Source: Nymphaea colorata
Lineage: Eukaryota > Streptophyta > Magnoliopsida > Nymphaeales > Nymphaeaceae
Reading direction: 5' to 3'
DNA length: 64,000 nucleotides
Assembly: GCF_008831285.2 (NCBI RefSeq)
Contig: NC_045150.1
Span: forward strand, 15,127,362 to 15,191,361
The notes beneath the pieces are model-generated. The model searched no databases. It had not been told where the DNA came from and saw only the letters and a list, made by a program, of their open reading frames with translations. Position 1 is the first letter of the stretch; every line of letters starts with the position of its first letter. Below are positions 1,616 to 60,459 of the stretch, piece by piece. The position numbers were made by a program, and so were the translations under genes.

Positions 1616-1649
1616 GAGGTCGTTTGATACAGGACAGGACGTCCTGTCC
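1616..1649 (+). repeat. Left terminal inverted repeat with an 18-bp palindrome
   Basis: The TIR begins GAGGTCGTTTGATACAGGAC. Positions 1632-1649 form a perfect palindrome, GGACAGGAC followed by GTCCTGTCC. More GTCCTGTCC-type words follow to about 1690, which looks like a subterminal repeat zone. Confidence 0.8.
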
Positions 1650-2512
1650 ATTACACTACTGTCCTGTCCTCTTAGACAATGGTGTTCCTTGTCCACCGTT
1701 TGATGACTTTAGGTACAAAACACAATGTTCCTTTTGTCCGGCGTTTGTTACAATGTTCCTTTTGTCCGGCGTCTGTTCTGTCTGTTCTGTTCGTCCTGAC
1801 GTTTGTTCACATAATAAACAAAAACAATGATCTGCTGAGACTTGAACGAAGTCATGCCCTTTTTACAAGAATCCAGAGTATAAGGCACAGTACAAAAGCA
1901 CGCGTTACACAATTTTTGTTGGTTTATCACCAAATTTTCACTAAGATTCCATACGGACTGCATTCAAAAGAAAAAATAAAGAACATAGTATTTTATAGTT
2001 TTTCTCTCAATATCTGTCCACTTTTACCCTTCAAAGATGACGATGGCAACCCAGAATACTTTACAGCAGCCATGGAATCATGAATCTCCTTGAGCTTTCT
2101 TTCAAATGTTTGCCTTCACTTTTCCCTTCTTTGGTGGAAAGGACTCAAGGGGAGCTTCTAAACCTCCTTTCTGAAATTGGTCCATGATAATGTGGTATTG
2201 CCTGGTGTGACGGAAATCTAAGATGTCTGCAGAGTGAAAGCCAAGAGTGGCAACTGACTGATTTTGCTTCTTCGCTTTATAGGCACAGTTGGAGTGATAA
2301 AAATTCCTTCCTTCGCATGGACAGGAACTGATTTTACAGGAACTGATTTTACAGAGTGAGATTTTAATCATTCATCAAGGACCAACATTATGAATCTAAA
2401 ATTTTCAAAAAAAATCACAGCAAGATCATGAGATATTTTTTTGTCAAAAGAGTCCCATAGATCAAACATTTCATCAGTAGAACATGAGATATTTTTTTTC
2501 CCTTCCCCTTCG
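1650..2512. other. 3' part of the TIR element, no recognised gene
   Basis: AT-rich DNA between the left TIR zone and the HIPP fragment. The minus-strand frame at 2368-2102 contains GGLEAPLESFPPKKGKVKAN, which looks protein-like and could be a fourth captured piece, but I cannot assign a family. Nothing else is supported. Confidence 0.4.
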
Positions 2513-2703
2513 CACGATGGCACAACTGCTGGTGTTATCATCACTGAACAAATAGGTAGCATACTCTGCTATCTGTGATTGTGGCTGATAGTTGTAGTAG
2601 GAAGTGGTAGCAAGTGGGGTGAGAGAAGACCTGTTGTACATCATCTGGATGTATCTCTCATTCAGCATCAGGTTCAGGTTCAGGTTCTGGTTATGGTTCT
2701 GGT
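2513..2703 (-). pseudogene. Captured HIPP C-terminus with CaaX box (stop lost)
   Basis: The last 64 residues before position 2513 are unrelated to PPR proteins. They end YATYLFSDDNTSSCAIV, the C-terminal signature of heavy-metal-associated isoprenylated plant proteins (FSDEN..C-a-a-X, farnesylated at Cys). The next codon is CGA (2512-2510) where HIPP genes normally stop; one transition from TGA would explain it. The frame then runs 12 more residues to a stop at 2474, so the CaaX Cys is no longer four residues from the end. The HMA domains are absent. The join to the PPR part falls in a hexamer repeat of AACC(A/T)G type at about 2670-2704. The family call is from recall of the motif, not a search. 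Confidence 0.6.
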
Positions 2704-4105
2704 TCCATCTTCCTGCTGCAGCATACATATTCGATAACAGGACGTATGCAGCAGAGTCGTGAGGCTCAAGTGACATGAGTTTATCGGCTGCTAGTTCTCC
2801 TAGTTTCAGATTACGATGTATTCTGCAGCCACCTAAGAGTGTCCGCCAAACAGTAGGACCTGCTGGGAAAGGCATTTCATTTATAAAACTCATGGCACTT
2901 TCAAGTTGACCTGCTCGACTGTACAGGTCGACCATGCAAGCATAATGTTCCATTGTTGGTTGGACATGGTAGATGCTGGTCATGGACTTGAAATAACGAG
3001 AACCTTCGTCTACAAGACCTGCATGATTACATGCAGTGAGGACGCCAACAAAGGTGATTCCATCCAACTGCAAGCCTTCATTCTCTAATTCAGAGAAGAC
3101 CTCAAGGGCTTTCTTACCGCGCCCATGTTGAGCATAACATGAAATCATTGAATTCCACGAAACTATGTCCCTTTCAGTGTGCCTCACGAACAACTTGAAG
3201 GCATGGTCAATGTCCCCACGTCTTGCATACATGGTAACTAAGGCACTGCTCACGCAAATGGCATTATCAAAGCAAGATTTGATCAGAAGTCCATGAAGCT
3301 GTTTGCCCTGTTCCACTGCTGCAGTTGGGCTGCTACATGCATTAAGCACGCCGGAAAACGTGAACTCATTTGGTTCTAATCCTTGTTGGGTCATTCTGCG
3401 GAAAAGCCTTGCAGCACCTTCTGAATCCCCTATTTGTCCATAACCCGTAAGCATTGCTGACCAAGAAACTGTATCCTTTTCATCCATTAAACTGAAAATT
3501 TTTGCTGCCTCCTCCATGCAACGTAGCTTTACATACACAGTCAATAACGCAGTCCCCACTTTTGGCGAGCTCTCATAACCGGCTTTGATGGCTTGCGCAT
3601 GAAACTGAGAAGGTGGCAAAACAGGGGCAGCGGTAAGAATCGTGGAGAATGTGAACTCATTTGGCTTGATATCTTCTCTCCACATATTTCTGAAGCCATG
3701 CAGTGCTTGCTCAGTCATGCCATTTTCCAAATAGCCACCAACCATTGCAGTCCATGAAACCACAGTATGTACTTCGGGCACCAGGGAGAACAATCCATGG
3801 GCAACCTCCATTTGCTTGCAGTTAGCAGAAGCAATCACGAGTCCAGTTAAGGTGCTGGTATCTGAAGCAAATCCAGTTTTAAATGCACATGAATGCAGCT
3901 GTCTTGTGAAACCTAATTCTCTGTTGTCAGCGCAAGCTTTTATGAGCGTTGTGAATGTTGCCTGAGTGAGCTGTACGCCGTCCATTCTCATCTGATGGAA
4001 AATCTCCAAGCTTCCGCATGAAACCCATTCTGTACGAGTCCAGTGAGCATAGCATTCCAAGAAATAGAACTCCTGTTCGACAGTCCATCAAAAACCATTT
4101 GTGCT
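2704..4105 (-). pseudogene. Captured PLS-class pentatricopeptide repeat gene fragment
   Basis: The minus-strand frame 4060-2704 (about 452 residues) is a run of PPR motifs of the P, L and S classes. Examples are VVSWTAMVGGYLENG, TVSWSAMLTGYGQIG and DIVSWNSMISCYAQHG, followed by E-motif-like sequence up to YVLLSNMYAAAGRW. PLS-class PPR proteins bind organellar RNA and often direct C-to-U editing, but here the E+/DYW end is replaced by a HIPP tail. The open frame starts at TTG, not ATG. PPR homology extends further upstream in another frame (SISWNAMLTGLVQNG, to about 4105 after a TGCAG acceptor-like site), so a 1-bp loss near 4020 breaks it. It is a transduplicated fragment, not the parental gene. 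Confidence 0.85.
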
Positions 4106-4348
4106 GCAGAAATTAATCATTAAAGGATAAAAACTTAAAATTTGAGAAAAAGAAACAAATGCTATGGTACAGACTAAGAATCAGGAAGATACACAATGAT
4201 CAACGAAGCAACTGTAAAAAAAAGTCTAAAAATGCTCAGTAAGTTTAAAAAATACGAAAGTTGAGTAAGACACAGTAACTTCAGCAAAAAAATTAAGACA
4301 AGAAGGAAACAAAAAGTCGAGCCAGAAGCAAGGAGAAAATAGAGGATC

Positions 4349-4769
4349 CATACTGCTTGAGTACATATAAGTGATTCCCTTTCCCCTGAGGAAGTTTAGA
4401 CGGCTCGTCATGTCTGTAAGAATAAGAACCATCGGGGTCGATTTCAGGAAGTGGGAAGAAACGAAAGCAACAAAAACAAAAGAGAAAAACACGGAAACAA
4501 ACAGCGAATAGGAAGAAGGACGGAAGGTTCTCAGAGAATCTCACCTCTAAGGTACAGCCCCTCGACGGAATACAGAGGAACTCCATGAAATGCAGATGCT
4601 CGAGCTGACCGTTCCTGCAGAGGTAGTAAAGCACCAGAACCCCACGCTCCTGCCTCGGCGCCCTCTTCTCCATCCAGACCTTCGTCCTCTTGGGGCTCGC
4701 CTCCCGGATCCTCCTCGCCAGCATTTCAACAACCCTAACACCCCCTCCTCCTCTGGCTCTTGCCGCCAT
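4349..4769 (-). pseudogene. Captured SOSEKI (DUF966) gene exons 1-2
   Basis: Exon 1 (ATG at 4769, ends 4545 at a GTGAG donor) carries ASPKRTKVWMEKR and VLYYLCRNGQLEH, the start of the DIX-like domain of SOSEKI polarity proteins. Exon 2 begins at 4413 after TTCTTACAG and reads RLNFLRGKGITYMYSSS, the next block of that domain; phases join G|AC. Captured intron 4414-4544 is retained, so capture was from DNA and not cDNA. A 1-bp deletion before the PLYSVEGLYLR part of exon 1 shifts the frame. Homology ends near 4349, and the rest of the DIX domain (SSKRSYKNGFVWHDL region) is missing. SOSEKI proteins polymerise at cell corners; this piece cannot. The family call is from motif recognition. Confidence 0.75.
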
Positions 4770-4787
4770 TTCTTCTGCGGGAGCGAG

Positions 4788-4955
4788 AGGGAGACTCGGA
4801 AAAGAGAAGGGGGAGAGACGGGGGCAACGGGCAGACTCAAAAGAGAGAAGGGAGAGAGACAGGGGCAAGGGCAGACTCATGGCAAGGGGCAGACTCAGAA
4901 GAGAGAAGGGAGAGAGACAGGGGCAAGGGCAGACTCAGAAGAGAGAAGGGGGGAG
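4788..4955. repeat. GGGCAGACTC minisatellite upstream of the captured SOSEKI start
   Basis: About four imperfect units of roughly 40 bp, each starting (G)GGCAGACTC and continuing with AGAAGAGAGAAGGGAGAGAG, plus one short unit. It lies in what would be the 5'UTR of the minus-strand SOSEKI fragment. Confidence 0.75.
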
Positions 4956-5162
4956 AAGGAGCTCGATGCGAGGGCAACTCGAGAGGTCGGGGGTGGGAGC
5001 TCGGGGCAGGAGATGGTGTCCTGTCTAGCCTGTTCCATGGGTTAGCTCGGAACAGTTTAGGACAGGAAGTAATTTATACTCTCCTCCAGTTGTCCGTTCT
5101 GTCCAGCGTGTCTAGTGGACATTGTTTGATGGTAAAATCGATTAGACAGGACACACATGTCC

Positions 5163-5196
5163 TGTTTCGCGTGTCCTGTAACCATCAAACGACCTC
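5163..5196 (-). repeat. Right terminal inverted repeat
   Basis: The reverse complement starts GAGGTCGTTTGATGGTTACA and continues into AGGACACG. It matches the left end over 13 bases, then again after a short offset. It is followed directly by TTA at 5197-5199. Confidence 0.8.
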
Positions 5197-5199
5197 TTA

Positions 5200-18352: not shown

Positions 18353-21300
18353 CTACTGACCTACTTTTGGAATTCTGATCTCCTCGTAGCCCTTGACGAT
18401 TGAGGAAGCCAAATCTCTCATAGCCTCAAAGATCTGAGATAAGCCCGTCCTTAAGGTATCCAAGATGCCGTCCTGAATTTCCTTCGCCACCTCTACGTGC
18501 TTTAGTTTCTGTTCCTCCAATCTCTTCATCATTGCATCAAGGGCCATCTTCCTATCAGCCAAGGGAATTCTATTATTTTTCTTTACCGAAATAGCCAGCT
18601 TATCTGTTACACCATTGCTCCCCTGCATCTTGTTCTCCTCCTCCTGCAATAATCTCTGTCTTTTTTTTAGGTCACTTGAGAGAAAGTCGGTCTTCATACT
18701 CTGGCGTTGCTCCTCCCCCAGCTGTTCCAATAGTTTATGCATGTTTTCTGCAAATGCATGCATAGCTGCTACAACTTGGTCCACTGAAATGCCTTTAGTC
18801 ATGTGATACCAATCGTTGCAGATGACAAACACTGGTGGTGCTCCCATTCTGCCTGGAGAGAAGGGCACAATTCCATCTGCTGTCACTTCCTGTTCCTGAT
18901 GCATGCATCTCAATAACCAATTGTTCAGGGACTCGATATATACTCTCTGAGCATTCATCCAGTCGATGAAACTGGAACACCAGTGTGAAGCTTCTTTTTC
19001 CAACTCCATTATTCCTTTCATAATTGCGTCCCTTGACATACTTCTCCACATGATGCTGCTCGTTTTGCCTTCTGAAATAGCTTGTAGTTGCTTTTGATGA
19101 GAGAGTAACATGGCTTTCCACATTTTTGTCATCCTGTGTTGATTATCAAGATGTAATCAAGATGCAGGAAGATAGAGTAGAAATCACCGCCATCAAGTGT
19201 GACATCACCAGAGATCAGTCACATTACCAAACAAACCAAGAACTTCCCAATTACTGGTTAGAATATACAAAATTAACAATTTATTTAAATGTGCAAAACA
19301 CCATGACATTGATATGCTTCTGGTTAAATTTGTGCCGATATATGTCTTCAACTTGGAGATACTATCAAAGCGACAAGATTTCTACAGCATCTAAGCAAGA
19401 GACATAACTTCTTTCCTATCTTACTTCTGCATCAATATCCTTGATATATAATCGCAGGGCTTGTGATATCAAGGGAGGTTTTATGCAAGATATCCCAATA
19501 GGTATTCCTGTCTAAAATAGAAAGCGAAGGAGATACACAATCAGTTTTGATAATGATAATGGTTCTATTCCTACAACACTGCACTAAGCTAAAGCTGCAT
19601 GCAGCGATCAGTTTTTGAGGTCCATTTAATCTTACAACCTGAACCAACAAAAATCTAAAGCATGATTATACGCCGTTGTTCTTTTTCGGAAAAGTGGGAT
19701 CTATAAACAAATCATATTGAGTTCAAAGCCCATCCTGTGAATCATCCAGAAAAAAGAACACTGGCCCATCCTGTGAATCATCCAGAAAAAAGAACACTAA
19801 TTAATTTAATGTAGACCAAGCAAGTACATATGCTTGCATCTATTTTGGCGTTTTCTTGAGAAAAAGGTTACGATGTAAGGTATAACAGAACCACGAAAGG
19901 AACACATGCATATAAGGTTATCAAATGAAAGAAGCTTGAGGAAAAGATATTTTTGTACCCTTCAATCAGTCTAGTAAGTTGGTCTTGCAGCTCGTAGTCT
20001 CTAAGCTTATGAAGCTTTGCCGATGTGGAATCAATGGCTTTCATGCTGATGCTAATCCTCGTGAGATGTTTCCGTATTGTTGCCTGAATAGCAAAAAGCT
20101 TTTGAGGTTCTGCACCTTTACTCTCCAGATGTCTCAATCGCTTGAGATTGTTCTCATAATTAAGTCGCATTTTCTCTTCGACCTGAGACAAAAGCACAGA
20201 CATGCACAAAGATTTTCAGGAAAAAGCCTCATGGATTGCTTTTATTCAGGCAAGCTCCAAAAGCAGGCAATTTCTGCTTTCTAAGTCTTTGTGTGCCAAA
20301 CATGTAAAGAACAATTCAGGAATTTCTCAGAAAATTTTCCTTCAGGAGCTCTTTCAAAATGTCATTTTTTTCTTGGGAAAAATTTGGAGGTCTTAAAATA
20401 TAAAATCAACAAAGGATGACAGAAAAACCAAGAAGAATAATTTATTCTTTTAATTTTTCTTCCAGAAACATAAAAGGACAAACATGGATGGTTTTTAAGA
20501 TTACTATACTTAAAGCTGACATAATAAATTTTGTAAAAATGCAAAATATGGTGATAATATCATAAAATGTTTTTTTTTTCTTTTTCTGACCATAACGTAA
20601 AAAAGCGTCAAACGGATTTCATGATATCCTCAGTCAACTATAAAATGCAATAAGAACAGGGCATTGCGATTGCCGTAAAACTCAAGATTATAGACATTAG
20701 AAATAGGCATCTGTATATTTCGCCATTAAAAGTTTGCATGCCCACATGTCAAACTATTAAAAGATATATCTGAATGATACCTTAACTTCTCTGTATAGTT
20801 TATTCTCCCATGTGCATATCTCTTCTAGAACTGCTGAAAGCTTGTCGGACTTCATCGGAAAATCTTCACCAGAATCAACGACGTCGGAAGGAGAGTTGCT
20901 TAGTAGGTTGAAGGAGAACTGTGGCGTCTTGGCTAATGAATGATGGCATGACACAGAAGAAAATTATTAAATCCAGACTGCCATGAAAAATAACTCTTAT
21001 TGCATTCTCCTATCAAAGGAAAAGGATAAATTAATATAAGAAAACCAAGTTCAAAACCCTGCAGAAATTCTCAAAATTTCACAGACGTGAAGATTTTACC
21101 TTTAACAATAATGTTTTTCGGACGATAAGGCAGCTTTCCCACCTCAAGTATCACTGAAACCTCTGAGGCCGACTGAGAAGCATCCATGAACTGAGCCTTA
21201 ATTTCAGCAATGGCATCCAATATACCCTTTGTGCACTGTGTCGTTGACATGACAATTACCTTCGTCGACTCACCATCCCCTTCCAAAGCCGCTTCAGTTA

Positions 21301-22294
21301 AACTCACTCCTCTCTGATGATTCGCAGAAGCTGCAGCAGTTTTCAGTTCCCCGCCAGCCGCCGGAGGAACAGCGTCTTCTTTCTCCGCCAGAAGATGGTG
21401 ACTGTGATCGCTTTCATCATCCTCTTCAACCATCAAAATATGCCCACTTTCCGAGCCCTTATTACCACTCAGTTCCTTCTTTGTGACCACACCTGGCTTT
21501 TGGTCTTTGGCCACTTCTTTTACGTCTCCGACCTCCAATTCGTCTTCCAAATCAGGAATCCCTTCCTTCAATCTCACCTCACTCAAGTCGGGGCTACTGC
21601 CATTTGAATTTTGGTTTCCAGCGTAGTACTCGTACATGTTCTCGTACCCTGTGAATGGATTGAAGAAATCCCAGTGAGAGGTTTTCGGAGGCGAAGGAGG
21701 GGGCTGCGGCTTCAGGGATGGTGATTGCACCGCCGGATCTTTCGCCGGCTCTGAGAAAGCCCAGTCGGAGCCTCCCCACATCACCGTCTCCGGATCATAC
21801 GGAGGCATTTGCTCCACAAAGACCACGGAAGGGATCGCACTTGACTTCATGTGGTTCACCGTAGCCTGAAGGCTTCGAGCCGGGGATTCATGAACGGGCG
21901 AGCTCCGGTGGTCGGAGACAACCACGGGACTATGCAGAAGTGAATCCGTCTCAGCATCCGACTCGTCCGAATTGAAATTCAGGTGAGACGCCTGAGAGGA
22001 ACGGTGCGACAACGAGTGAGAAAGCGAGGTCGAAGCCGAGCAGCTCTTGCGCGACACCTTCTTACCGTCGTCGGGAATCGTCAGGACGGGCGACGAGCTC
22101 GGGTCGACAGGAACGAACCTCTCGTTCACGAACAGGTGCACCAACTCGCCAACTCTCACCAGACACTGAATGTAGGCGGAATGCGCTGCGGCGAGAGCGT
22201 ACCGCTCGTCGACTGCGGAGAGAATGAACTGCCTCCGTTCCCTGCAGAGCCTCACCAGGTCTGTCTCCTCCAGCTTCGATTGTCCGCAGCCCAT
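18353..22294 (-). CDS. DUF630/DUF632 family protein, 783 residues, four exons
   Basis: Exons on the minus strand: 22294-21100, 20932-20781, 20182-19959 and 19133-18353 (stop TAG). All junctions are GT-AG and phases 1, 0 and 2 join to 784 codons with no internal stop. The N-terminus MGCGQSKLEETDLVRLCRER is the DUF630 start with an N-myristoylation signal (Gly2), suggesting membrane attachment. Residues about 80-340 are Ser/Pro/Asp/Glu-rich and low-complexity. DUF632 runs from about residue 350 (TKGILDAIAEIKAQF), through YENNLKRLRHLESKGAEPQK and MTKMWKAMLLSHQKQ, to near the end, with a coiled-coil stretch around MKRLEEQKLKHVEVAKEI. Relatives include the NRG2 and REL2-type plant proteins involved in nitrate signalling or leaf form; which subgroup this belongs to is not decided here. 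It is the only intact host gene in the window. Confidence 0.92.
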
Positions 22295-22849
22295 TATAGA
22301 GAATCCCTAATCTCGGATCCACACTCTCCTCGGAAATCCTAATTCCCCGTTAGAAACCCCAAACCAGATCCTAAGTTCGCGCGATTCGTCAAACAAAAAG
22401 GAAAAAGGAAAACTGATTTTCACACAATTCATGCGGTATAATCCGGAAAAAGTGGTAAAAAGTTCAAACAGAATTCTCTGAAATGCTCAACCATAAAGAT
22501 ACCAGAGACGGCAACACACACAAACACACACACACACCCACAAAATCTGTGAGGATGCAGAGGAGGAAACATATGATTTCTTTAACAAAACCGGCAAGAA
22601 AACAATACCATGGTGGAAAATTTTCTCTCTGCGTTCAATTATTATTAATCCGGGGGATCATAAAAGGAAATTGAATAGCCGGAATCATCTTCAAAATCTT
22701 GTGGCGAACCATCTTGTTATTGACGCAGTAAAGGAAAATTTCTCTCCGCCCAACGTTCGAAGGCCAGTCAGTTTGATCCTAAAACCAACTCCATGTCGCT
22801 CCAATATCATCTCATATGCTTGGTAGCAGTAGCAGGAGCAACTCTTACC

Positions 22850-31591: not shown

Positions 31592-31596
31592 GTCAC

Positions 31597-34500
31597 TGTT
31601 ACAGACCAGTTTGTAGGTCCAGACCCAACAAGGCACGAGCAGGCTGAAACCAGTCGGCCAAGGCATAAAGCCTCGGACTTATGGGCTCAGTCGCTAAGGC
31701 AGCATGAAGAAGTCCTAAGCGAGGCTAAGTCGGCACCCGAACCAGTTGCAGAGGGCGGAGTGGGAGGAGCAGCTAGGTCCGAAAGAGTGCTCGAACCAGG
31801 TGGAACTCAAGACGTTCTAGAACCCATTGCGAGGCTCACCGAGCTTGACCAGACCAATCCGAGCGTGAGTCCAAATCCCCCGAACGCTTGAGCCTCTCTA
31901 AATCCGAACGGCTTAGGTTCAGGTCTAAGTCACTCGGACTTGACCCGTGCACCAACACCAGAAGTGTGGGCGGCAACCCACACAAGGTCCCCGCCCTAAG
32001 TCCACAAGACTTAGGGATTTCCACATTTGACTTATGTGCTGGGCGCTAGGCCCGATTTGTATTAGGCGTCTTTCATTTCATGTTGATAGCAGGTTTTGAA
32101 TAAGAGACCTAGCAAGGCGGGTTGTGCCTTGCACAATTTTGTAATGGGGCGGGTTAGCGAGCTAGGTTAGGATGTAATTAGGGCTCGCATTAGGGTTAGT
32201 ATAAATATTTTGTAAAACAATGTACAGGGGATGCAAAAAAAATTGAATGAGATTGGCCATTTTGGCGTTTTCACTCTCTCTCCTCTCTCGAGGCTTCTCC
32301 CTTCTCGTCTCCCACCTTGCTCAACCCGTGAGCCAGGCGTCTCCTCCCTCCTCGCATCCTCTACCACCACGGCGCCTCCAATTCCAGAAGATCCTTGAAG
32401 AGCTACCGTCCCTAGGACACCGGCATAAGGATTGAAGACTTAGGCGGATCTCCTCCACCGGCGGCGATCCCTCCTTTGCTCACGTAAGTACCCCTTTTGT
32501 TTCTTTTGCAAATCTGGAATTAGTGCCTATTCCCTGATCACGAGGGAATCGAGAGGCTAATTCTGGTGTAGGGAAGATTGAAGGCGCGGGTTCTACCGCC
32601 GGCTTCAATACGACACCGAAGAGGGCAAGATTCCGATCTTCTTCTTGCTACGGGATCTGTGTTGCTCGGGTTTAGACTCGGAATCACCTTCCTCTAGTTC
32701 CTCCCTCGGCATGCCCGAGAGTGGAGTTACGGGCGGGGGTGAAGCTGCATCTAAACCGCAGCTTACACTTCTGGTCGCACGTTGGAAATCGTTAGTCTTG
32801 GCCTTAGTAGGAATTCGGCCGAGAGAGAGAAATCAAAATCGTAAAAGAATTAACTCTCGGCCTTGGAATCTTCCTCTCGAGCTCTCGGTCCAGAAGCCTA
32901 AAAATCATAAGAAATCAAGGTTCTGGCCTAGATCTGAGACAGAGGACTAGCTCAGAAGAATCGCCCAATCGAGCTCTTCAAAATAATATAATTTGGGTAA
33001 GATTCGACGGCTAGAATGTAAAGATCGAATTCCGCCGGAAAAAGGCATTAATCCGGCCACCGCTGCAAGTTCCGGTGGTCGCCATTGATTCCGGCAGGAA
33101 GACCGTTTTGCCCTTCATTCCCTATTGTTTTTAGTTAAATTCGATAGGGGCACACTGGTCAATTGGACGTTCGGACCAACCCCTAGCCGCCGTTGCTAAG
33201 TTGGAGATTCCTCCTCGGTCGCACGTCCGAATCTGGTAAGTCCTCTCTCGTTCGATCTCAGCCCTCCATTTGGACGCCTGTCATCCATCCTGCCACCTTC
33301 CCATGACCTTCCGCCATCAGCTGCCACCTGTCCCAGACCGAGATCCCCTCGGTATCCCCTGCTCCACCAGATTAGGAAACCTCATCGCGCAGCCGCATCT
33401 CTCCCCTTTGGTCGCATCCCCCCACCGCGTCAACCCTAACTCGCATTGATCTTCACGCGTTCATCCATACACGTGTCAAGATCTTGCTCAGCCATCCGCC
33501 ACCTCACCTGCCAGCTCACCCTCCAGCTCCTCGCCTTGATCCCGCCTTCCACCACGTGTCACCCGGATAGGCCCTGCGAGATCCCCCCTTGCCTACCTTT
33601 CTGGATCTTCATTCCTTAGTTTTAGGAAAGCATCGCCACCTCGCCACCTTTCCTATTTCTCCTCAGCCACAAATCTCCTATCCCCATTGACCTAATCCGC
33701 ACTCCCTCTCAGCCATTGATCTCCTCCACGTGTCCCCATCTCAGCCCTGGAGTAGCCCGAGTTCACTTGAGAGTGACACCTGGCCCTTCGCCACAATCTC
33801 CCTCTCCTTCTTTGTTGAGCTCCTCCCTACCACTTAGGAAAGAGTTCGAATCTTTTCCTAATAGCTAGCCACTTCCTAGCTAATTCTGTCTCGGTCCCTT
33901 CATCTTGCCACGTGGCAAGAATCAACGGCCCCTCTTGGTTTGACCGACCAAGCCATACCCCACCGAGTTAGGAACCCTCACGCGCCGCCTCCTTACCGAG
34001 GTTCCCCATTTCCCTCGCCCTTGTCCTAAGCCACCATCTTATTCTTCACCTTAGCCGACTCTAGGTGCGACCTACCGAGCCCACTTCTTTGGCAACCCCC
34101 CTTAGTGACTCGAGCCTACCTCGAGTGACCCTTGACCTAATTGACCCGGACCCACTGAGCTAGGCCCACTTAGTCAACTACCCACTTAGTCAACCATACC
34201 ACTCTTGGTCAACGTTGACCTTCACCCGTGAGCCTAGGCTCGACCCTAGCCTACCCCAAGCGGACCTCCTATAGCTAGGTCAACCCTCTCTTGCACCTAA
34301 GCCCTCTTTTACTCAACCTACCTCAACCCGAGCCTGTTTGACTAGACCGACCTCCTATTAGAGCCCTGCTGAACCCAGTCAACCCAGCCTTAGTTAGGTC
34401 TAGGTTCTGCCGGCCCAGCCCGGCCCTTGCAACGGCCACTCCTCCTCCGTCGGCACCTACCAGCGTACGTGGCCGAGCCACACACCGGAGACAGGCAGGT

Positions 34501-35532
34501 AGGCGCTGTCGCTGTGACAGCAGCCCCCCTCGGCTTTCCAGGCGACCCTTCTGGCTCGATTCCTTCGTCTTCAGCGCACAGCGGCAACCAGACGCAGACT
34601 GGTGATAGTCGGCCTCCACCCGATCGGCGCCCTCTCGTTCCCGACCACAGGCGAGCGCCCTTCAGCGAACGTCACCGGCAGTGACCGCAGCAGCCCGTCG
34701 GCCGCAGCCTTCGTCCTCGGCGCGCATTCTCCAGCTCTGCTCAGCGTCTGTCAGCAGGACACTTCGGACGCCTGCGCCTGCTCGAGCAGACCATCTAGCC
34801 GCAATCGCGCAGCGGCCACAGCCAGCGAGCAGCGTTCAGGCCTCGGTTGTCGACCAGTCCTCCAGCGCGCGGCCGCCCGCCAGCGCCCATCCGTCAGCCG
34901 TCCAGTCCAAGCAGTAGGCTACGAGGAGGCTCTCCTCAGTTGGTTTTCCTGATCCGTAAGCTGCAGTGCTCGGGGGCTGGTTCTCACCCCGAGACGCTTA
35001 TCCGGCTACGCCAAGGGTAAACCTTGGCCGGTATCATTTCTCTTACCCCCTTGTAGCTTCGGGTGGGATTTTACTTCAAGCATTAGGAAGCATCATAGTT
35101 TATTTTAGTTATTGCTTTAGCCTTGCCTTCGGCCTAGCTCCCCATTGAGGTACCTCGAGGGCACTGCGCCCGAAACACGACCACAAGGAGCGAGACCACC
35201 TATTTATTCCTGTTGTGTGTGGTTTGCGCATTAGTGTGGTTTGAGAGTGAGATTGAGAGTAATTCTTGTATCGCTCGCGAATTGTAAGGCCTCACAACCC
35301 TTCTAGCTTTGTGTAGTAGGCAGACCATAGTTAGGATTTTTGGGAAAAAGGGTAACCTACACTTGTACACCTCTACCTATTTGGGATTGCGCCGGGGTCC
35401 TGTCCGGCCGTGTAGATCTCTTGTGTAATTTGCCTAGGTTTTTCGGTTTTTAGATTAGGCCTCAAGAAGATTCTGGGAGGTTTAGGGTCGCACTGGTCGG
35501 ATTGTTCTAGCTCTGCCGGTGTGGTCCTAACA
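31597..35532 (+). repeat. Gypsy B 5' LTR (3936 bp)
   Basis: Begins TGTTACAGACC and ends CCTAACA. GC-rich for the window. TATA-like TATAAATATTT at 32200. The first about 300 bp remain open in the pol tail frame. A 41-bp segment near 34371-34411 is absent from the 3' LTR and accounts for the whole length difference. A cluster of W-box cores lies at about 33935-34385. Confidence 0.95.
32200..32210 (+). promoter_or_regulatory. Gypsy B LTR TATA box candidate
   Basis: TATAAATATTT about 600 bp into the LTR, identical in the 3' LTR at 41660. It is the best core-promoter candidate for the element's transcript. The start site itself cannot be read from sequence. Confidence 0.6.
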
Positions 35533-35535
35533 ATT

Positions 35536-35547
35536 GGTATCAGAGCG
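35536..35547 (+). other. Gypsy B primer-binding site (tRNA-iMet)
   Basis: TGGTATCAGAGC begins three bases after the LTR end and is complementary to the 3' end of initiator Met tRNA. Confidence 0.9.
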
Positions 35548-36177
35548 AATCTTGAGGAACACCGTCGGTTTGAGCACTTGGACCTTTGAAGAGTCTTCAT
35601 CAACGGCAGTGCAGACGGTTTTTTCTAGAGGGTTTTCAGCTTTGGCAGTGGTTTCTTTTGGTTTTCGAGTCAGCGTGTCTACGGTTTTCTTAGTGGCAGA
35701 ATTCAGATTTGAAGTCCCCACGGCTTCCAATATCGTGCGTAGTTTAGGGCTTTGCTTGCTCCTTAGCAAGTAAAGGGCTGTACATTCCGTGCACCCGAGG
35801 GCAGCCGAGCTCTCGGTATGTCACCGAGGCACCAGGAGGGTGCGGTGATTTAGGCTTGAAAAAGCCCGGCCGAGGGCGAAGTGGGAATGCCGAGGCGCTT
35901 AGGTGAAGCGCGGCACTAGGCGGGCCAACCTGCCTCCCTTGCCTTTAAACTCGCTACCGGCAGCTAAGGCAGCGGCAGCGTAGGACAGCTAGGCAGTTTG
36001 GGTTTTTCAGGTCAGTGTCAGTCGGCAGATCGGAGTCTTCGGGCAGGAAATCAGTCGGCAGTTTAGGGCGAACAGCGACACCTCACTTAAGAGTGGCAGC
36101 TTGTTCAGTTTTTGGATTTTAGTTAGGACTTCCCTTTTCGTATATTTCTTTGACGTACACCGGCCCAAATCGTACTA
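35548..36177 (+). other. Gypsy B untranslated leader
   Basis: About 0.63 kb between PBS and the gag ATG at 36178. It is G-rich with short GGCAG-type repeats and no protein-like frame. Confidence 0.6.
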
Positions 36178-37225
36178 ATGGGCAAGTCAAAGAAACAGTT
36201 TAATCCCGACGAGCCCGTCGTTGAGGAACACCTCACCGACTAGCAGGAAGAGGCTCCGGGCACTCAAACGGGATCCGTTCCCAATTACGCCATGGGCAGG
36301 ATTTTGAATATAGAGAAAGAGCTGCTGCAGATGCGCAGTGACATGAATAAAATGGAACAATTCCGCAAAAGAGATCTGGATAGACAAAATCAAGAGCGGC
36401 AAAAGGAGGTGGAAGAAATTCGGGCACTTCTTAGGCAGCTGACTGCCAACCAAGCCCCAGGGGGGAAAGGACCACTCAGGGTCCGAATAAAGGAAAAGGT
36501 GTGTTAGGTGCGCATACCTACCCCACCGATACTGAGATTGACCCGAATAACCTCTCCCACATCGGTACGAGCACGGACGGGGGCAGACTCTTGCAGATGG
36601 GTCCCTCGCCAAAGCGGCAGCCACTTGAGCCCACTAGCGAATACTACAGGACTCCTCGAGTTCAAAGGTTTGCTAGTAGCAGGATGAATCGCACATACTA
36701 CGATTCAGAAGGGGAACAGGACGAATCTCCTCTACACCCAAGAAGAGCACAACGGAATCCCCAAGGGGAAAGGCGAACTCCCACAGTTCGATATGAGTTT
36801 CCCAAATTCAATGGGGAACACTTACGGGAATGGCTTTTCATTGCCGAAAGGTATTCTTATGTCATCACGTACCCCAGGACGAATGGATCGAGATTGCCAC
36901 AGCGAACATGACAAGAGAGGCCACAACCCATTACTTGTGGTTTGATCATAAGACGGCAGACTCTACCTGGGAGAAATACAAAGCAAGTCTCCAACTCCAA
37001 TTTCGGGACTCCACATTCATAGACTATGATGAGGACCTCAAAAATCTGGTCCAAACTACTACCGTGGCTGCTTATCAACGTCAGTTTGAGAGGTTAGCCA
37101 GCATGGTCCAGTGGCCAGAAAAGGCCCTCATCAGAGCGTTCAAGGGCGGCCTTAAAAGCGAGATAAAAAGAGAATTGAAAATCCACCGTTTTGACAGGCT
37201 TGAAGAATGTTTTGCCATGGCCTGA
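36178..37225 (+). pseudogene. Gypsy B gag
   Basis: ATG at 36178 opens MGKSKKQFNPDEPVVEEH, with a TAG at 36241. A predicted coiled coil (RILNIEKELLQMRSDMNKME) follows. Frame changes near 36490 and 36870 separate further pieces: FPKFNGEHLREWLFIAERY, then TTHYLWFDHK, STWEKYKASLQLQF and AYQRQFERLASMVQWPE, the Retrotrans_gag core. A TGA at 37223 ends this piece and the same frame reopens after it. One TAG, one TGA and two indels are therefore enough to explain its inactive state. Capsid function is lost in this copy. Confidence 0.85.
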
Positions 37226-38017
37226 CTCTATGAGGAACAAATAGAGGAGAAAAGAGCCGAGAAAAAGGCTCACAAGATGGATAAGCAGAGGAGGAAGCCT
37301 TCCTATTCCTCTGGTTCTCGTTTTAGAGGGAAGGAACTGACTCCCTTCAGAAGAGGGAGTGACTATAGGCCCCAACAAGGCCCAAATCAAGGGCAGGGCC
37401 GAAAACCACCCACCCGTTACCTAACGCCAAAGCAGATTGAAGAGTTCAGGCGCAAGGGCCTGTGTTACAGATGCGAGGGTAAATGGTATAAGAACCATCA
37501 GTGCCCAACATATTACAGGGTACAGGTGGTGAGTGATGATGAATCCAGCTCGTGTAGTGATTCTTCAACAACGCCGTATGAAACTAGTTCATCCTCGTCG
37601 GATGAGGAAGTAATTGCGAAGAAGAGAGCCAAGTCTACCGAGAAGAAGAAAGAGAGCCGTTCAGAAGAGACTCCCACCAAAGAGGAGAAGCCCACTGAGG
37701 CCGAGTCTCTACATTCTATGCAGGATCCCAACAAACCCAACTCATTCCAGGTATTTGGGAAAATAAACGGCCACAAGGTCTTGATATTGCTAGACAACGG
37801 GGCGACAAAGAACTTCCTAACCGAGGAAGCGGCAAGGAGATGTAATGTTGCTCTGGAGTCAAGCAACCCCCAAACCATAATCGTGGGAGGGGGCATGAGA
37901 TTGAAATGCCACAATGAAGGGAAAGACGTGGAAGTGGTGATAAAGAAGAAACCCTTCAAGATTGACTTCTTAGTCATTCCCTTAGATGGAGTAGACCTTA
38001 TTCTTGGCATGCCATAG
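37226..38017 (+). pseudogene. Gypsy B zinc knuckle and protease
   Basis: This continues the gag frame with a basic stretch, then the zinc knuckle CYRCEGKWYKNHQC (C-X2-C-X7-H-X-C, usual for this lineage). A Ser/Glu/Lys linker follows, then a retropepsin with VLILLDNGATKNFLTEEA. The active site reads D-N-G where D-S-G or D-T-G is usual. IPLDGVDLILGMP marks the domain end, where a TAG at 38015 replaces the Trp codon of the usual GM-W block. Whether DNG would be active is uncertain. Confidence 0.85.
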
Positions 38018-41000
38018 TTTTTCACGCTTGGCATCATCTCTTGGGATGTGAAGAACTTCAGTATGACCTTCACTCCCGACGGCGACGAAGACCCCATGAC
38101 ACTACAGGGGTTAACCAGCACTACTCGTCCCAAGGCTGCATTACGTGCAATTGAGGCCGAGCAGCCTGCTTGTTGGGTGATGGCACTCGCAACGGATGTG
38201 CCAGAAAAGGAAGAGCAGAAAGAGATAGTGCCAGAAAGAATACAAATGGTGCTGGACCGTTTCGAGGACGTCTTTGAGGAGCTTAAGGGTCTCCCGCCAC
38301 AAAGGTCTTATGACCATAGAATTATAATGACTCAGGGGGCCGAACCAGTTAATGTACGTTCCTATCGGTACGGGTATAACCAGAAGGTTGAGATTGAGCG
38401 TCTGGTTAAAGAGATGTTGGAGAGTGGCATTGTGCAACCGAGTAGCAGTCCTTTCTCTTCCCTAGTGTTACTAGTGAAGAAGAAGGACAACACTTGGCGC
38501 TTCTGTGTAGACTACCGCGCCTTGAACGAAGCCACCGTGAAGGACCGACACCCCATACCGGTTATAGATGAGTTATTGGATGAATTAGCCGGGGCAACAA
38601 TCTTTTCCAAGATCGATTTACGAGCCCGGCTATCATCAGATTCGAATGTGCAAGGACGACGTCCCCAAGACCGCTTTTCGGACACATGACGGGCACTACG
38701 AGTTCCTCGTCATGCCATTTGGTCTGACTAACGCACCAGCAACTTTTCAGAGGTGCATGAACAACGTCTTCAGACAATACCTCTGTGATTTCATCTTGGT
38801 CTTCTTCGATGACGTCTTGATATATAGCCAGTCTGAAGAACTTCATCAAAAGCATCTTTCGGTTGCTCTTCAAGTTTTAAGGGATAACCAATTATACGCA
38901 AAGATGTCCAAATGCAGCTTTGGACAACCTTCCATTGGTTATCTAGGGCACATAGTGTGTCAACAAGGGGTTCGGGCAGACCCCGAAAAATTAGAAGCCA
39001 TGCAGAAGTGGCCACTGCCCATGGACCTGAAAGGACTTCGAGGATTCCTTGGCCTAACTGGATACTATAGGCGTTTCATCCAGGGTTATGGACTTATTGC
39101 TCAGCCCTTGACCCAGATGCTTAAAAAAGGAGCCTTTCAGTGGTCGGACAAGGCTAGGGCGGCCTTTGAAAAATTAAAATCAGCCCTTATGTCAGCGCCT
39201 GTTCTTACACTTCCGGATTTCAATCAACAATTCACCATTGAAACAGATGCTTGTGAGGTTGGAATTGGGGCTGTTCTCAGCCAAGGAGGCCACCATATCG
39301 CATATATGTCTAAGGCACTCACGAGTAGAGCGAAGCCTCTTTCTACTTATGAGAAAGAACTTTTGGCGATAGTATTGGCAGTTGAGAAGTGGCGGCCTTA
39401 TCTTATAGGGTGCAGATTTGTAGTTAAAACGGACCAGAATTCTCTTAAGTATATGTTGAAACAGAGAGTATCCACGCCGACCCAACAACGTTGGCTGGCG
39501 AAGCTGCTTGGATACGATTTCGAAATTGAATATAAGAAAGGTTCGGAAAATACAGCGGCCGATTCTATCTCTCGTTTGACTGAGCAATTCATGACTCTTT
39601 CGGTAGTGGAAACTGATGTTTGGGATATATTAGCACAAGAACAACAAGCGGATCAGTCTATGAGGCTAATCAGAGCGTCAACAGAGCAACATCCAGGATC
39701 CATTCCCTTCTATACAGTCAGAGGGAATATTCTCTACAGGAAGAACCGTGCAGTGGTTCCTCCAGAATCAGGGCTTAAGCAGGAACTCCTGCGTCATTTC
39801 CATGACACACCTGCCGCTGGTCATGAGGGGGTTTCCAAAACCCTTAGCAGGATTAAAGCCCAGTTTTGGTGGCGAGGCATTAAAGCAGAGGTACAGAGGT
39901 ACATACGGACTTGCCTGGTATGCCAAAGGGAAAAATACGAGGCCATTAGACCTCCGGGACACTTGGTTCCCCTCCCCATACCAACCAAACCATGGACCGA
40001 TGTAACCATGGATTTTATAGATGCAATGCCCCGCTCAGAAGGCAAGGAAGCTGTGCTAGTGGTAGTGGACCGTCTGACAAAATACAGCCACTTCGCTCCC
40101 TTGCCTCGATCATATCAAGGGCCAATGGTGGCCAGCGTGTACCAAGAGTATGTAGGAAAGCTCCACGGGATGCCACAGTCAGTCGTTTGTGACAGGGATT
40201 CGATCTTCCTCAGTGCATTTTGGCAGGAGTACATGAAGCTCATGGGTACCACGCTTAATTTTAGTACAGCCCATCACCCACAAACAGACGGGCAGAGTGA
40301 AATTGTCAATCGATCTCTAGAGACCTATCTGAGATGTTTCGCAGGGGAGCGACCACACACTTGGGTAAAGTTTTTACCTTGGGCAGAGTGGTCATACAAA
40401 ACCAGTCCACATTCATCTACAGGGATGACACCTTATGAAGGTGTATATGGGACCCCTCCTCCAACTATCCCTAGATATGAAGGAGGCACAGCAGGCGATG
40501 ATAATGTAGACTGCGAGTTACGCACTCGTGAGGAAGTGCTAGACTCCCTCAAGCAAAATATTGCCAAATCTCAGAATAGAATGAGACAGGTCTACAACAA
40601 AGGGCGTAAAGATCGTGAATTTGAAGTGGGTGATTACGTGTGGTTAAAGAGGTTGCCCCTCAAACAAAGATCCTTAATGGGCCAACCCTATTCTAAACTA
40701 CTACCAAGGTATTATGGTCCGTTCCCGGTTTTACAGAAGGTAGGAAAAACAGCGTACCGACTGGGTCTTCCACATGAAGCTATGGTACATCCCGTTTTTC
40801 ATATCACCAGGCTCAAGCCTCATCATGGTGATATTCCTACGATTATAGAGCAAATACCGGAACAAGATAACCTGCCCACTCCCTATCGCATTCTCAAACA
40901 TCGTTATGTTCAGAGACAAGGGATGACAAGGCATGAGGTACTAGTGGAATGGGAAGGGCCAGACAGAGGAACCTCTTGGGAAGAGTTTGGGTCAGTGGCT

Positions 41001-41351
41001 CATCGCTTTCCCTCCTCTAGCGCTCGAGGACAAGCGCATTCTAGGGAGGGGGAATCTGATACGGACCAGTTTGTAGGTCCAGACCCAACAAGGCACGAGC
41101 AGGCCGAAACCAGTCGGCCAAGGCATAAAGCCTCGGACTTATGGGCTCAGTCGCTAAGGCAGCATGAAGAAGTCCCAAGCGAGGCTAAGTCGGCACCCGA
41201 ACCAGTTGCAGAGGGTGGAGTGGAAGGAGCAGCTAGGTCCAGAAGAGTGCTCGAACCAGGTGGAACTCTAGACGTTCTAGAACCCATTGCGAGGCTCACC
41301 GAGCTTGACCAGACCAATCCGAGCGTGAGTCCAAATCCCCCGAACGCTTGA
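38018..41351 (+). pseudogene. Gypsy B pol: RT, RNase H, integrase, chromodomain
   Basis: RT begins at about 38385 ([40 protein letters not shown]). One frameshift near 38625, inside the LRAGYHQI block, separates it from the long frame 38646-41351. That frame has VMPFGLTNAPATFQ, FFDDVLIYS (catalytic DD kept), RNase H (IETDACEVGIGAVLSQ; YEKELLAIVLAVEKWRPYL), the integrase zinc finger (H..H..CLVCQREK), the integrase core with the D,D,E residues at about 40013, 40190 and 40303, and a chromodomain-like end (HEVLVEWEGPDRGTSWEEF, about 40935-40990). The last 98 codons lie within the 3' LTR. Apart from the frameshift it is undamaged. Confidence 0.92.
41043..41056 (+). other. Gypsy B polypurine tract
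   Basis: AGGGAGGGGGAATC directly before the 3' LTR. It is translated as part of the open pol frame. Confidence 0.85.
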
Positions 41352-44300
41352 GCCTCTCTAAAGCCGAACAGCTTAGGTTCAGGTCTAAGTCACTTGGACT
41401 TGACCCGTGCACCAACACCTGAAGTGTGGGCGGCAACCCACACAAGGTCCCCGCCCTAAGTCCACAAGACTTAGGGATTTCCACATTTGACTTATGTGCT
41501 GGGCGCTAGGCCCGATTTATATTATGCGTCTTTCATTTCATGTTGATAGCAGGTTTTGAATAAGAGACCTAGCAAGGCGGGTTGTGCCTTGCGCATTTTT
41601 GTAATGGGGCGGGTTAGCGAGCTAGGTTAGGATGTAATTAGGGCTCGCATTAGGGTTAGTATAAATATTTTGTAAAACAATGTACAGGGGATGCAAAAAA
41701 AATTGAATGAGATTGGCCATTTTGGCGTTTTCACTCTCTCTCCTCTCTCGAGGCTTCTCCCTTCTCGTCTCCCACCTTGCTCAACCCGTGAGCCAGGCGT
41801 CTCCTCCCTCCTCGCGTCCTCTACCACCACGGCGCCTCCAATTCCAGAAGATCCTTGAGGAGCTACCGTCCCTATGACACCGGCATAAGGATTGAAGACT
41901 TAGGCGGATCTCCTCCACCGGCGGCGATCCCTCCTCTGCTCACGTAAGTACCCCTTCCGTTTCTTTTGCAAATCTGGAATTAGTGCCTATTCCCTGATCA
42001 CGAGGGAATCGAGAGGCTAATTCTGGTGTAGGGAAGATTGAAGGCGCGTGTTCTACCGCCGGCTTCAATACGACACCGAAGAGGGCAAGATTCCGATCTT
42101 CTTCTTGCTATGGGATCTGTGTTGCTCGGGTTTAGACTCAGAATCACCTTCCTCTAGCTCCTCCCTCGGCGTACCCGAGAGTGGAGTTACGGGCGTGGGT
42201 GAAGCTGCATCTAAACCGCAGCTTACACTTCTGGTCGCACGTTGGAAATCGTTAGTCTTGGCCTTAGTAGGAATTCGGCCGAGAGAGAGAAATCAAAATC
42301 GTAAAAGAATTAACTCTCGGCCTTGGAATCTTCCTCTCGAGCTCTCGGTCCAGAAGCCTAAAAATCATAAGAAATCAAGGTTCTGGCCTAGATCTGAGGC
42401 AGAGGACTAGCTCAGAAGAATCGCCCAATCGAGCTCTTCAAAATAATATAATTTGGGTAAGATTCGACGGCTAGAAAGTAAAGATCGAATTCCGCCGGAA
42501 AAAGGTATTAATCCGGCCACCGCTGCAAGTTCCGGTGGTCACCATTGATTCCGGCAGGAAGACCGTTTTGCCCTTCATTCCCTACCGTTTTTAGTTAAAT
42601 TCGATAGGGGCACACTGGTCAATTGGACGTTCGGACCAACCCCTAGCCGCCGGTGCTAAGTTGGAGATTCCTCCTCGGTCGCACGTCCGAATCTGGTAAG
42701 TCCTCTCTCGTTCGATCTCAGCCCTCCATTTGGACGTCTGTCATCCATCCAGCAGCCTTCCCCAGACCTTCCGCCATCAGCTGCCACCTGTCCCAGACCG
42801 AGATCCCCTCGGTATCCCCTGCTCCATCAGATTAGGAAACCTCATCGCACAGCCGCGTCTCTCCCCTTTGGTCGCATCCCCCCACCGCGTCAACCCTAAC
42901 TCGCATTGATCTTCACGTGTTCATCCATACACGTGTCAAGATCTTGCTCAGCCATCCGCCACCTCACCTGCCAGCTCGCCCTCCAGCTCCTCGCCCTGAT
43001 CCCGCCTTCCACCACGTGTCAGCCGGATAGGCCCTGCGAGATCCCCCCTTGCCTACCTTTCTGGATCTTCATTCCTTAGTTTTAGGAAAGCATCGCCACC
43101 TTGCCACCTTTCCTATTTCTCCTCAGCCGCAAATCTCCTATCCCCATTGACCTAATCCGCACTCCCTCTCAGCCATTGATCTCCTCCACGTGTCCCCATC
43201 TCAGCCCTGGAGTAGCCCGAGTTCACCCGAGAGTGACACCTGGCCCTTCGCCACAATCTCCCTCTCCTTCTTTGTCGAGCTCCTCCCTATCATTTAGGAA
43301 TGAGTTCGAATCTTTTCCTAATAGCTAGCCACTTCCTAGCTAATTCTGTCTCGGTCCCTTCATCTTGCCACGTGGCAAGAATCAGCGGCCCCTCTTGGTT
43401 TGACCGACCAAGCCATACCCCACCGAGTTAGGAACCCTCACGCGCCGCCTCCTTACCGAGGTTCCCCATTTCCCTCGCCCTTGTCCTAAGCCGCCATCTT
43501 ATTCTTCACCTTAGCCGACTCTAGGTGCGACCTACCGAGCCCACTTCTTTGGCAACCCCCCTTAGTGACTCGAGCCTACCTCGAGTGACCCTTGACCTAA
43601 TTGACCCGGACCCACTGAGCTAGGCCCACTTAGTCAACTACCCACTTAGTCAACCATACCACTCTTGGTCAATGTTGACCTTCACCCGCGAGCCTAGGCT
43701 CGACCCTAGCCTACCCCAAGCGGACCTCCTATAGCTAGGTCAACCCTCTCCTACACCTAAGCCCTCTTTTACTCAACCTACCTCAACCCGAGCCTGTTTG
43801 ACTAGACCGACCTCCTATTAGAGCCCTGCCGACCCAGCCCGGCCCTTGCAGTGGCCACTCCTCCTCCGTCGGCACCTACCGGCGTACGTGGCCGAGCCAC
43901 ACACCGGAGACAGGCAGGTAGGCGCTGTCGCTGTGACAGCAACCCCCCTCAGCTTTCCGGGCGACCCTTCCGGCCCGATTCCTTCGTCTTCAGCGCACAG
44001 CGGCAACCGGACGCAGACTGGTGATATTCGGCCTCCACCCGATCGGCGCCCTCTCGTTCCCGACCACAGGCGAGCGCCCTTCAGCGAACGTCGCCGGCAG
44101 CGACCGCAGCAGCCCGTCGGCCGCAGCCTTCGTTCTCAGTGCGCATTCTCCAGCTCTGCTCAGCGTCTGTCAGCAGGACTCTTCCGACGGCCGCGCCCGC
44201 TCGAGCAGACCATCTAGCCGCAATCGCGCAGCGGCCACAGCCAGCGAGCAGCGTTCAGGCCTCGGCTGTCGACCAGTCCTCCAGCGCGCGGCCGCCCGCC

Positions 44301-44951
44301 AGCGCCCATCCCTCAGCCGTCCAGTCCGAGCAGCAGGCTACGAGAAGGCTCTCCTCAGCTGGTTTTCCTGATCCGTAAGCTGCAGTGCTCGGGGGCTGGT
44401 TCTCGCCCCGAGACGCTTATCCGGCTACGCCAAGGGTAAACCTTGGCCGGTATCGTTTCTCTTACCCCCTTGTAGCTTCGAGTGGGATTTTACTTCAAGC
44501 ATTAGGAAGCATCATAGTTTATTTCAGTTATTGCTTTAGCCTTGGCTTCGGCCTAGCTCCCCATTGAGGTACCTCGAGGGCACTGCGCCCGAGACACGAC
44601 CACAAGGAGCGAGACCACCTATTTATTCCTGTTGGGTGTGGTTTGCGCGTTAGTGTGGTTTGAGAGTGAGATTGAGAGTAATTCTTGTATCGCTCGCGAA
44701 TTGTAAGGCCTCAAAACCCTTCTAGCTTTGTGTAGTAGGCAGACCATAGTTAGGATTTTTGGGAAAAAGGGTAACCTACACTTGTACACCTCTACCTATT
44801 TGGGATTGCGCCGGGGTCCTGTCCGGCCGGGTAGATCTCTTGTGTAATTTGCCTAGGTTTTTCGGTTTTTAGATTAGGCCTCAAGAAGATTCTGGGAGGT
44901 TTAGGGTCGCACTGGTCGGATTGTTCTAGCCCTGCCGGTGTGGTCCTAACA
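41057..44951 (+). repeat. Gypsy B 3' LTR (3895 bp)
   Basis: Begins TGATACGGACC and ends CCTAACA, followed by GTCAC. It encodes the pol C-terminal tail to a TGA at 41349-41351. TATA-like TATAAATATTT at 41660. Differs from the 5' LTR by substitutions and one 41-bp deletion near 43830. Confidence 0.95.
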
Positions 44952-47962: not shown

Positions 47963-47994
<32 letters not shown>

Positions 47995-49594: not shown

Positions 49595-49596
49595 GA

Positions 49597-60140: not shown

Positions 60141-60305
60141 GCACTCAATCTCTTTTTAGAGAGAATAGGCTATGCTCTAGTGCACCGGGAACATGCAAAG
60201 ATGAGATGATCTTTCATCTCATGATTAAATCATGTTTTCTCTTTTATTGAATATAGCATTGTCTTTCTTCTTCATTTTCTTCTCATCTTCATCTCCCCAT
60301 GGCCA

Positions 60306-60459
60306 AAGGAGATAGCACTCAATCTCTTTTTAGAGACAAGAGGCTATGCTCAAGTGTACCGGGAGCATCGAAAGATGATGTGAAGGAGATAGCACTCAAT
60401 CTCTTTTTAGAGACAAGAGGCTATGCTCAAGTGTACCGGGAGCATCGAAAGATGATGTG
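60306..60459 (+). repeat. Perfect 77-bp tandem duplication in the 3' LTR
   Basis: 60306-60382 and 60383-60459 read identically, starting AAGGAGATAGCACTCAATCT and ending AAGATGATGTG. Related diverged units begin at about 59236, 59413, 60138 and 60566, and two lie in the 5' LTR. Confidence 0.9.

Follow-up and report, generated by a model that had tools for sequence, protein, structure and literature searches.

A Pack-type PIF/Harbinger transposon of Nymphaea colorata with fragments of SOSEKI, PPR and HIPP genes and a probable stepwise capture history

A 64,000-nucleotide stretch of the Nymphaea colorata genome (the window, to which all positions given without a contig or locus refer) contains an element of 3,581 bp (3.6 kb) at 1616-5196 that carries pieces of three host genes. 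We consider it very probable that this element is a non-autonomous Pack-type PIF/Harbinger transposon of N. colorata with a stepwise capture history. Its carrier is a member of the PIF/Harbinger superfamily, and the gene fragments were captured at the DNA level. The pieces, from SOSEKI, PPR and the C-terminus of HIPP, all lie on the minus strand and in that order. Genome searches covered the 407.8-Mb assembly of 783 contigs, which are labelled C1, C5 and so on.

Results

Insertion into a Gypsy element

The element sits in the gag region of a Gypsy retrotransposon and is bounded by perfect terminal inverted repeats (TIRs), 13 of 13 positions matching, at 1616-1628 (plus strand, GAGGTCGTTTGAT) and 5184-5196 (minus strand). 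A TTA target-site duplication flanks them, with its copies at 1613-1615 and 5197-5199. The insert was absent from all three other genomic Gypsy copies that match both flanks. At two of these empty sites (C13:2022040-2022273/2022271-2022533 and C12:4946536-4946768/4946286-4946538) the flank matches overlapped by exactly 3 bp, which indicates a single target site and a 3-bp duplication, and in the third copy (L061), read directly, a single TTA ran through without insert. Because the empty copies are paralogous, they show insertion with a 3-bp duplication and give no age for it. When the flanks were rejoined with one TTA, the gag-side frame stayed open for about 25 further codons before a stop.

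The first 27 bases of the element occurred once genome-wide, and no further copies of it were found within the 64-kb window, where TIR-like sites with 2 mismatches are present at 26912, 45782 and 46260. Rfam at gathering thresholds gave zero matches in the window. No long terminal repeats (LTRs) of the hosting Gypsy were found when the left 11.6 kb was compared with the right 14.8 kb. The hosting Gypsy also holds a tandem duplication of 0.86 kb, 94% identical, with one copy that starts 618 bases before the window (L002) and runs to 240 and the other at 398-1245.

The carrier family and its transposase

A pattern derived from the left ends of relatives, namely TWA (TTA or TAA), the exact TIR and the word TGTC, had 106 genomic occurrences (52 + 54; 100 were listed) versus 0 for the reversed pattern. 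The window element's left end is without the TGTC word and hence lies outside the 106. One relative, C9:7698227-7705572, is 7,346 bp long, is flanked by TTA at either end and has one TIR that is exact and another with 1 mismatch. It contains DDE_Tnp_4 in two frames (1.4e-17 and 1.3e-5) and Myb_DNA-bind_3 (PF12776, E=1.8e-10) in another. Its left and right arms match those of the window element at 82% and 75%, respectively. In the window these are the left subterminal arm at 1633-1807 and the right arm at 4778-5183, which has CT-rich repeats, shares parts with L034-L036, L045 and L046, and gives the 75% match over its terminal 194 bp. The census of TWA ends, together with the C9 element and its DDE_Tnp_4 and Myb/SANT frames, identifies the carrier as PIF/Harbinger.

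A genome search with the DDE_Tnp_4 Pfam model scored 150 places of 307 candidates. Eleven of the 150 lay 0.95-1.5 kb inside a family end or left arm, and all 11 were on the opposite strand (coordinates compared by hand). Eight were near family ends (C9:7698224, C6:17791316, C6:15139982, C10:1246582, C10:12497802, C11:12381235, C11:151985 and C9:5614999) and three near left-arm matches (C13:3974458, C13:3987057 and C15:2182978). Within the window element no transposase was detected by Pfam in four frames, and none of the 150 scored places fell inside it. The C10-type copies of 4.27 kb were considered as a transposase source and rejected, none being seen by eye in the long frames of the C10, C14 and C6 copies.

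The family set comprised 20 genomic loci, three parents of captured genes and 17 non-parent loci. Matching TWA pairs flanked 9 of the 17 (six directly and three after extension), and matching TTA/TTA or TAA/TAA was seen at 11 elements in all: the window element; L034, L039-L042 and L051; those on C10, C11 and C14; and the C9 element. The extended elements measured 4,272 bp with TAA (C10, L049), 4,284 bp with TTA (C11, L050) and 4,469 bp with TAA (C14, L052). Two of these members, of 4.27-4.28 kb and at different sites (C10:4793212-4797483 and C11:16840301-16844584), are 98.3% identical, a near-identity that suggests recent activity. A stretch of the C10 copy matches the Myb/SANT region of the C9 element at 90% identity.

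Several relatives have complex surroundings. In L038, two left-type TIRs 164 bp apart (1918-2082), preceded by TAA and TTA and the first with a right-type arm, mark neighbouring or nested elements. About 1.2 kb past the L035 element lies a Myb/SANT-like frame (L035 5471-5857, minus strand; PF12776 E=8.2e-13), and no transposase was noticed by eye in the listed frames near it. The SOSEKI-carrying relative at L036 1852-6376 is interrupted by about 3.4 kb with a weak, below-cut-off DUF659 frame.

Captured genes and their parents

The parents of the three pieces were found on three separate contigs, C5 for SOSEKI, C1 for PPR and C11 for HIPP. The genome search with element segments scored the best 40 of 393 candidates and listed 55 matches. 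The PPR fragment at 2705-4115 (minus strand) holds repeats and part of the E motif (Pfam: PPR_2 E=3.1e-54, E motif 1e-10) from a PPR-DYW gene of the At2g27610 type. It is 97.2% identical over 1,412 bp to C1:14435757-14437168, within an 864-codon open frame that encodes a DYW protein and by eye reads as N. colorata protein P0001. Among the 55 matches listed, the PPR piece was present only at the window and at this parent. The HIPP32-like C-terminal coding fragment at 2492-2698 (minus strand, right edge approximate) matches its HIPP32-like parent at 94.1% over 186 bp, and 55 of 66 residues are identical to an N. colorata HIPP32-like protein. Its stop codon is lost, and the CAIV end is now internal.

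The SOSEKI5-like fragment at 4178-4777 (minus strand) comprises exon 1 (4545-4769), intron 1 (4414-4544), exon 2 (4354-4413) and part of intron 2 (4178-4353). Exon 1 and intron 1 are present in full; where exon 2 ends was predicted. Exon 1 matched PF06136 above the cut-off of 24.3 bits (E=3.2e-6, 27.8 bits) and exon 2 below it (E=1.5e-4, 22.4 bits). Identity to the SOSEKI 5-like parent was 84.5% over 638 columns; counted over the 587 ungapped bases only, it was 91.3%. The copy begins about 8 bp before the parental ATG and stops within intron 2. The retained intron indicates that the gene copies came from DNA.

A preliminary description, made from the window sequence, had proposed a 3.58 kb TIR element with a TTA duplication and a PIF/Harbinger-like carrier, holding fragments of three host genes on the minus strand in the order SOSEKI-PPR-HIPP and captured at the DNA level. 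The matching ends with TTA on both sides, the 106-to-0 census with the transposase-coding C9 relative, the Pfam and parent matches, and the whole intron 1 with partial intron 2 bear out these points. Its suggested genome-wide search of the TIR ends recovered the family as well as C9, the exact 27-base left end being unique, and its search for parental loci found all three, each on a contig of its own. Its question whether the Gypsy site occurs without the insert was answered in part: three paralogous copies are empty, and the comparison was confined to paralogous copies in this genome.

Order of capture and joints

The loci L034 and L035 carry HIPP and SOSEKI without PPR. Their SOSEKI edges lie at parental bases 2936 and 3558 (in the window element, 2936 and 3560), and between HIPP and SOSEKI they have further HIPP sequence and a spacer. 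Part of the L034 spacer (98 bp, 78%) is also in L048, and alignment places a remnant of the spacer in the window element at 4117-4177 (minus strand), between PPR and SOSEKI. About 290-305 bp between HIPP and SOSEKI is replaced by 1.41 kb of PPR in the window element. Elements with HIPP and SOSEKI and without PPR suggest stepwise assembly in which PPR came later. The PPR capture is probably younger than that of SOSEKI because, in addition to this presence and absence, PPR synonymous divergence is 6.5%, compared with about 10% in SOSEKI intron 1 (13/124 sites, 10.5%). At 18 SOSEKI sites all four element copies differ from the parent, as a single capture would give. In L048, HIPP is present and a SOSEKI match is absent within the stretch taken as the element, which suggests, without showing it, a stage with HIPP only.

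To the left of HIPP, the segment at 1821-2476 is common to a second element subfamily (L038-L044 and L051; most 82-88%). It is possibly a fragment of a further gene; no Pfam match above cut-off was present in the frames scanned. The segment contains a PPKKGKVKAN motif similar to a frame in L046, where a family element of 1,470 bp (L046 2326-3795, TGA on both sides) has a frame containing PPKRAQVKARIF; the two may carry pieces of related genes. At the joint between HIPP and the left arm there is a 20-nt filler (2479-2498), a 95% copy of 2423-2442, 56 bp away, that is probably a templated insertion. The PPR/spacer joint has AAATTA in common, a 6-nt microhomology, and the HIPP/PPR joint, as read from the alignment, a single C. 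This microhomology and the templated filler suggest template switching.

Coding state of the captured pieces

PPR and HIPP lie in one open frame at 2474-4087. From the first Met at 3991, the open reading frame list gives a fused frame of 505 codons plus stop (2474-3991, minus strand), which passes the lost HIPP stop and terminates at 2474. The preliminary description had pointed out this fused frame, and it stands. The same account had added a splice acceptor, a promoter and a spliced chimeric product, and these were not upheld. The TGCAG taken as a newly made acceptor before PPR is parental PPR coding sequence, within codons for Ser-Ala-Ala-Gln. Parental SOSEKI homology begins only about 8 bp before the ATG, which indicates that the promoter was not captured. 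For the present sequence, a three-part SOSEKI-PPR-HIPP protein was rejected because of frameshifts, a 1-nt deletion after FME in SOSEKI exon 1 and another after HAEA in the PPR piece, and for early stops in both splice combinations tried (exon 1-exon 2-PPR and exon 1-PPR). The SOSEKI frameshift is absent from the elements L034, L035 and L036.

Over 434 codons, the ratio of non-synonymous to synonymous substitution (Ka/Ks) between PPR parent and element was 0.31 (18 synonymous and 20 non-synonymous differences), a value by which selection on the element cannot be told apart from parental constraint combined with divergence before capture. With Victoria as outgroup, 10 of the 20 residue changes fell on the element side and 6 on the parent side, and 4 were unclear. 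The pieces are most probably passengers in decay.

Matching chimeras in Nymphaea thermarum

Two predicted N. thermarum proteins match parts of the window element. P0006 is a SOSEKI-PPR chimera whose shifted peptides are identical to those of the window element, and P0034 is a PPR-HIPP chimera with the same RRGREKKYLMFY tail beyond the lost HIPP stop. They are encoded on contigs of unequal length and have residues in common that set them apart from the N. colorata parent. The full chimera has one copy in the N. colorata genome, among the matches listed.

Other features of the window

A long Gypsy element at 31596-44951 has 3.9-kb LTRs that are 96.4% identical, with protease, reverse transcriptase, RNase H and integrase frames at 37226-41348. 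The stretches 46552-49595 and 58137-62349 form a large direct duplication, which is split into two pieces with identities of 82% and 87%. On the minus strand, DUF630 and DUF632 frames at 18356-22306 are probably parts of a single host gene.

Discussion

A sequence of events that would produce the element can be proposed. A PIF element with these ends would have copied in a HIPP32 fragment, and a SOSEKI5 fragment would next have been added beside it. One HIPP-SOSEKI lineage may then have swapped its left arm with the second subfamily, and 1.41 kb of PPR coding DNA would have replaced the sequence between HIPP and SOSEKI in that lineage. The joints may go back to template switching as a break within the element was repaired. 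The finished unit would have been mobilised in trans by a PIF transposase with its Myb/SANT partner.

Some observations weigh against this account. Mobilisation by a C9-type element is inferred, and the genes of that element are predicted ones. The flanks are not always a matching TWA pair, with TAA/AAG at L035, TGA/TGA at L046 and TTA/TAA at an element at C6:14.16 Mb, and a TWA pair was not found at 6 of the 17 non-parent loci (L036, L038, L043, L044, L045 and L048). The differences common to all element copies could instead be parental changes, and the divergence estimates for PPR and SOSEKI intron 1 have overlapping errors. At L048, a simple repeat covers the HIPP edge, and just outside the probable right end there is a SOSEKI-like stretch (71%, in the other orientation). 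Among the N. thermarum proteins, none has all three pieces together, and at its PPR-HIPP joint P0034 reads IRKM for MYAAAGRW, a mismatch that may stem from its gene model.

Other explanations of the element's structure fare less well. If PPR had been present first and was later lost from L034 and L035, the single PPR-bearing copy among the matches listed would be accommodated, but those two loci have continuous HIPP and spacer sequence, partly shared with L048, exactly at PPR's place in the window element, and of the pieces PPR has the highest parental identity among the matches listed; we regard such a loss as very unlikely. That the carrier is a MULE, hAT or other TIR element flanked by TTA through chance is extremely improbable. 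Short TIRs by themselves do not identify a superfamily, and three relatives are without a clean TWA pair, but two empty sites demonstrate a 3-bp duplication, TWA recurs at 11 elements, and DDE_Tnp_4 and Myb/SANT frames lie within nearly identical ends. An assembly error that fused several loci would explain why the PPR piece was found only at the window and its parent among the matches scored, leaving the full chimera single-copy in the assembly. The matching N. thermarum chimeras, which repeat the frame-shifted peptides and the HIPP tail, speak against such an error, and L034 and L035, on other contigs, have the same SOSEKI edges, so that its likelihood is next to nil.

A different question is whether a stepwise-built Pack-type element has also become a gene. 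The PPR-HIPP frame might be a young chimeric gene that selection maintains in Nymphaea, with a translated transcript that starts from a cryptic promoter or in the element's own right arm. Its 505 codons span both pieces without a stop, Ka/Ks is 0.31, and gene models exist in N. thermarum, one of them with the same tail. The coding pieces, however, hold two 1-nt deletions, the N-terminal part and the DYW domain of the PPR parent are missing, and loss of the HIPP stop leaves the CaaX-type end internal. Constraint on the parent branch contributes to the low Ka/Ks, and divergence that preceded capture possibly does too; P0006 is without the HIPP tail, and the N. thermarum entries are predicted proteins. 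We therefore consider a gene of this kind unlikely. The fuller proposal seems to us decidedly unlikely as well: in it, a PIF/Harbinger transposon assembled a PPR-HIPP gene stepwise before N. colorata and N. thermarum diverged, and the new gene is expressed and under purifying selection. A working new gene from this frame is unsupported by the present evidence.

The collection of genes by short-TIR transposons has been argued mainly from end products. The single genome studied here contains HIPP-SOSEKI relatives (L034 and L035), a possible HIPP-only relative (L048) and the PPR-containing mosaic of the window, along with all three parents, three empty sites and a transposase-coding relative whose ends are nearly identical. 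This PIF/Harbinger family, from an early-branching flowering plant, thus allows direct measurement of the breakpoints of each capture, its age and its place in the order. A literature search of limited extent gave no publication that describes an element of this sort in Nymphaea.

Pack-MULEs belong to the Mutator superfamily and have a target duplication of 9-11 bp. The Nymphaea element, with its 3-bp duplication, is unlike them and falls outside that group; host gene fragments lie between its TIRs and have identifiable parents elsewhere in the genome, which places it among Pack-TYPE elements. As in Pack-MULEs, gene fragments were captured at the DNA level and form chimeras (PMC8903248, PMC13317346). 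Tgm-Express1 of soybean likewise holds several unrelated gene fragments, five in that case, with exons and introns kept, but it belongs to the CACTA superfamily and its transcripts have been demonstrated (PMC1947982). Template switching with microhomology followed by transposition has been described for certain animal elements, in an account in whose text the words Harbinger and PIF were not found.

The closest counterparts are the Pack-PIF elements published in maize and rice, and the rarity of such PIF carriers supposed in the preliminary description is hence not supported; that paper reports PIF/Harbinger ends, a TTA/TAA duplication, host gene fragments and clustered copies, as seen here (PMC8903248). 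Growth of Pack-PIFs through the joining of neighbouring elements has been proposed in the same source, which describes a cluster with gene regions of 163 bp and 58 bp in elements averaging 535 bp (PMC8903248). Compared with that cluster, the Nymphaea element holds 0.2, 0.6 and 1.4 kb from three genes within 3.6 kb and has relatives with fewer pieces. The kind of element is already known; what is new here is the staged record in one genome together with matching proteins in a second species.

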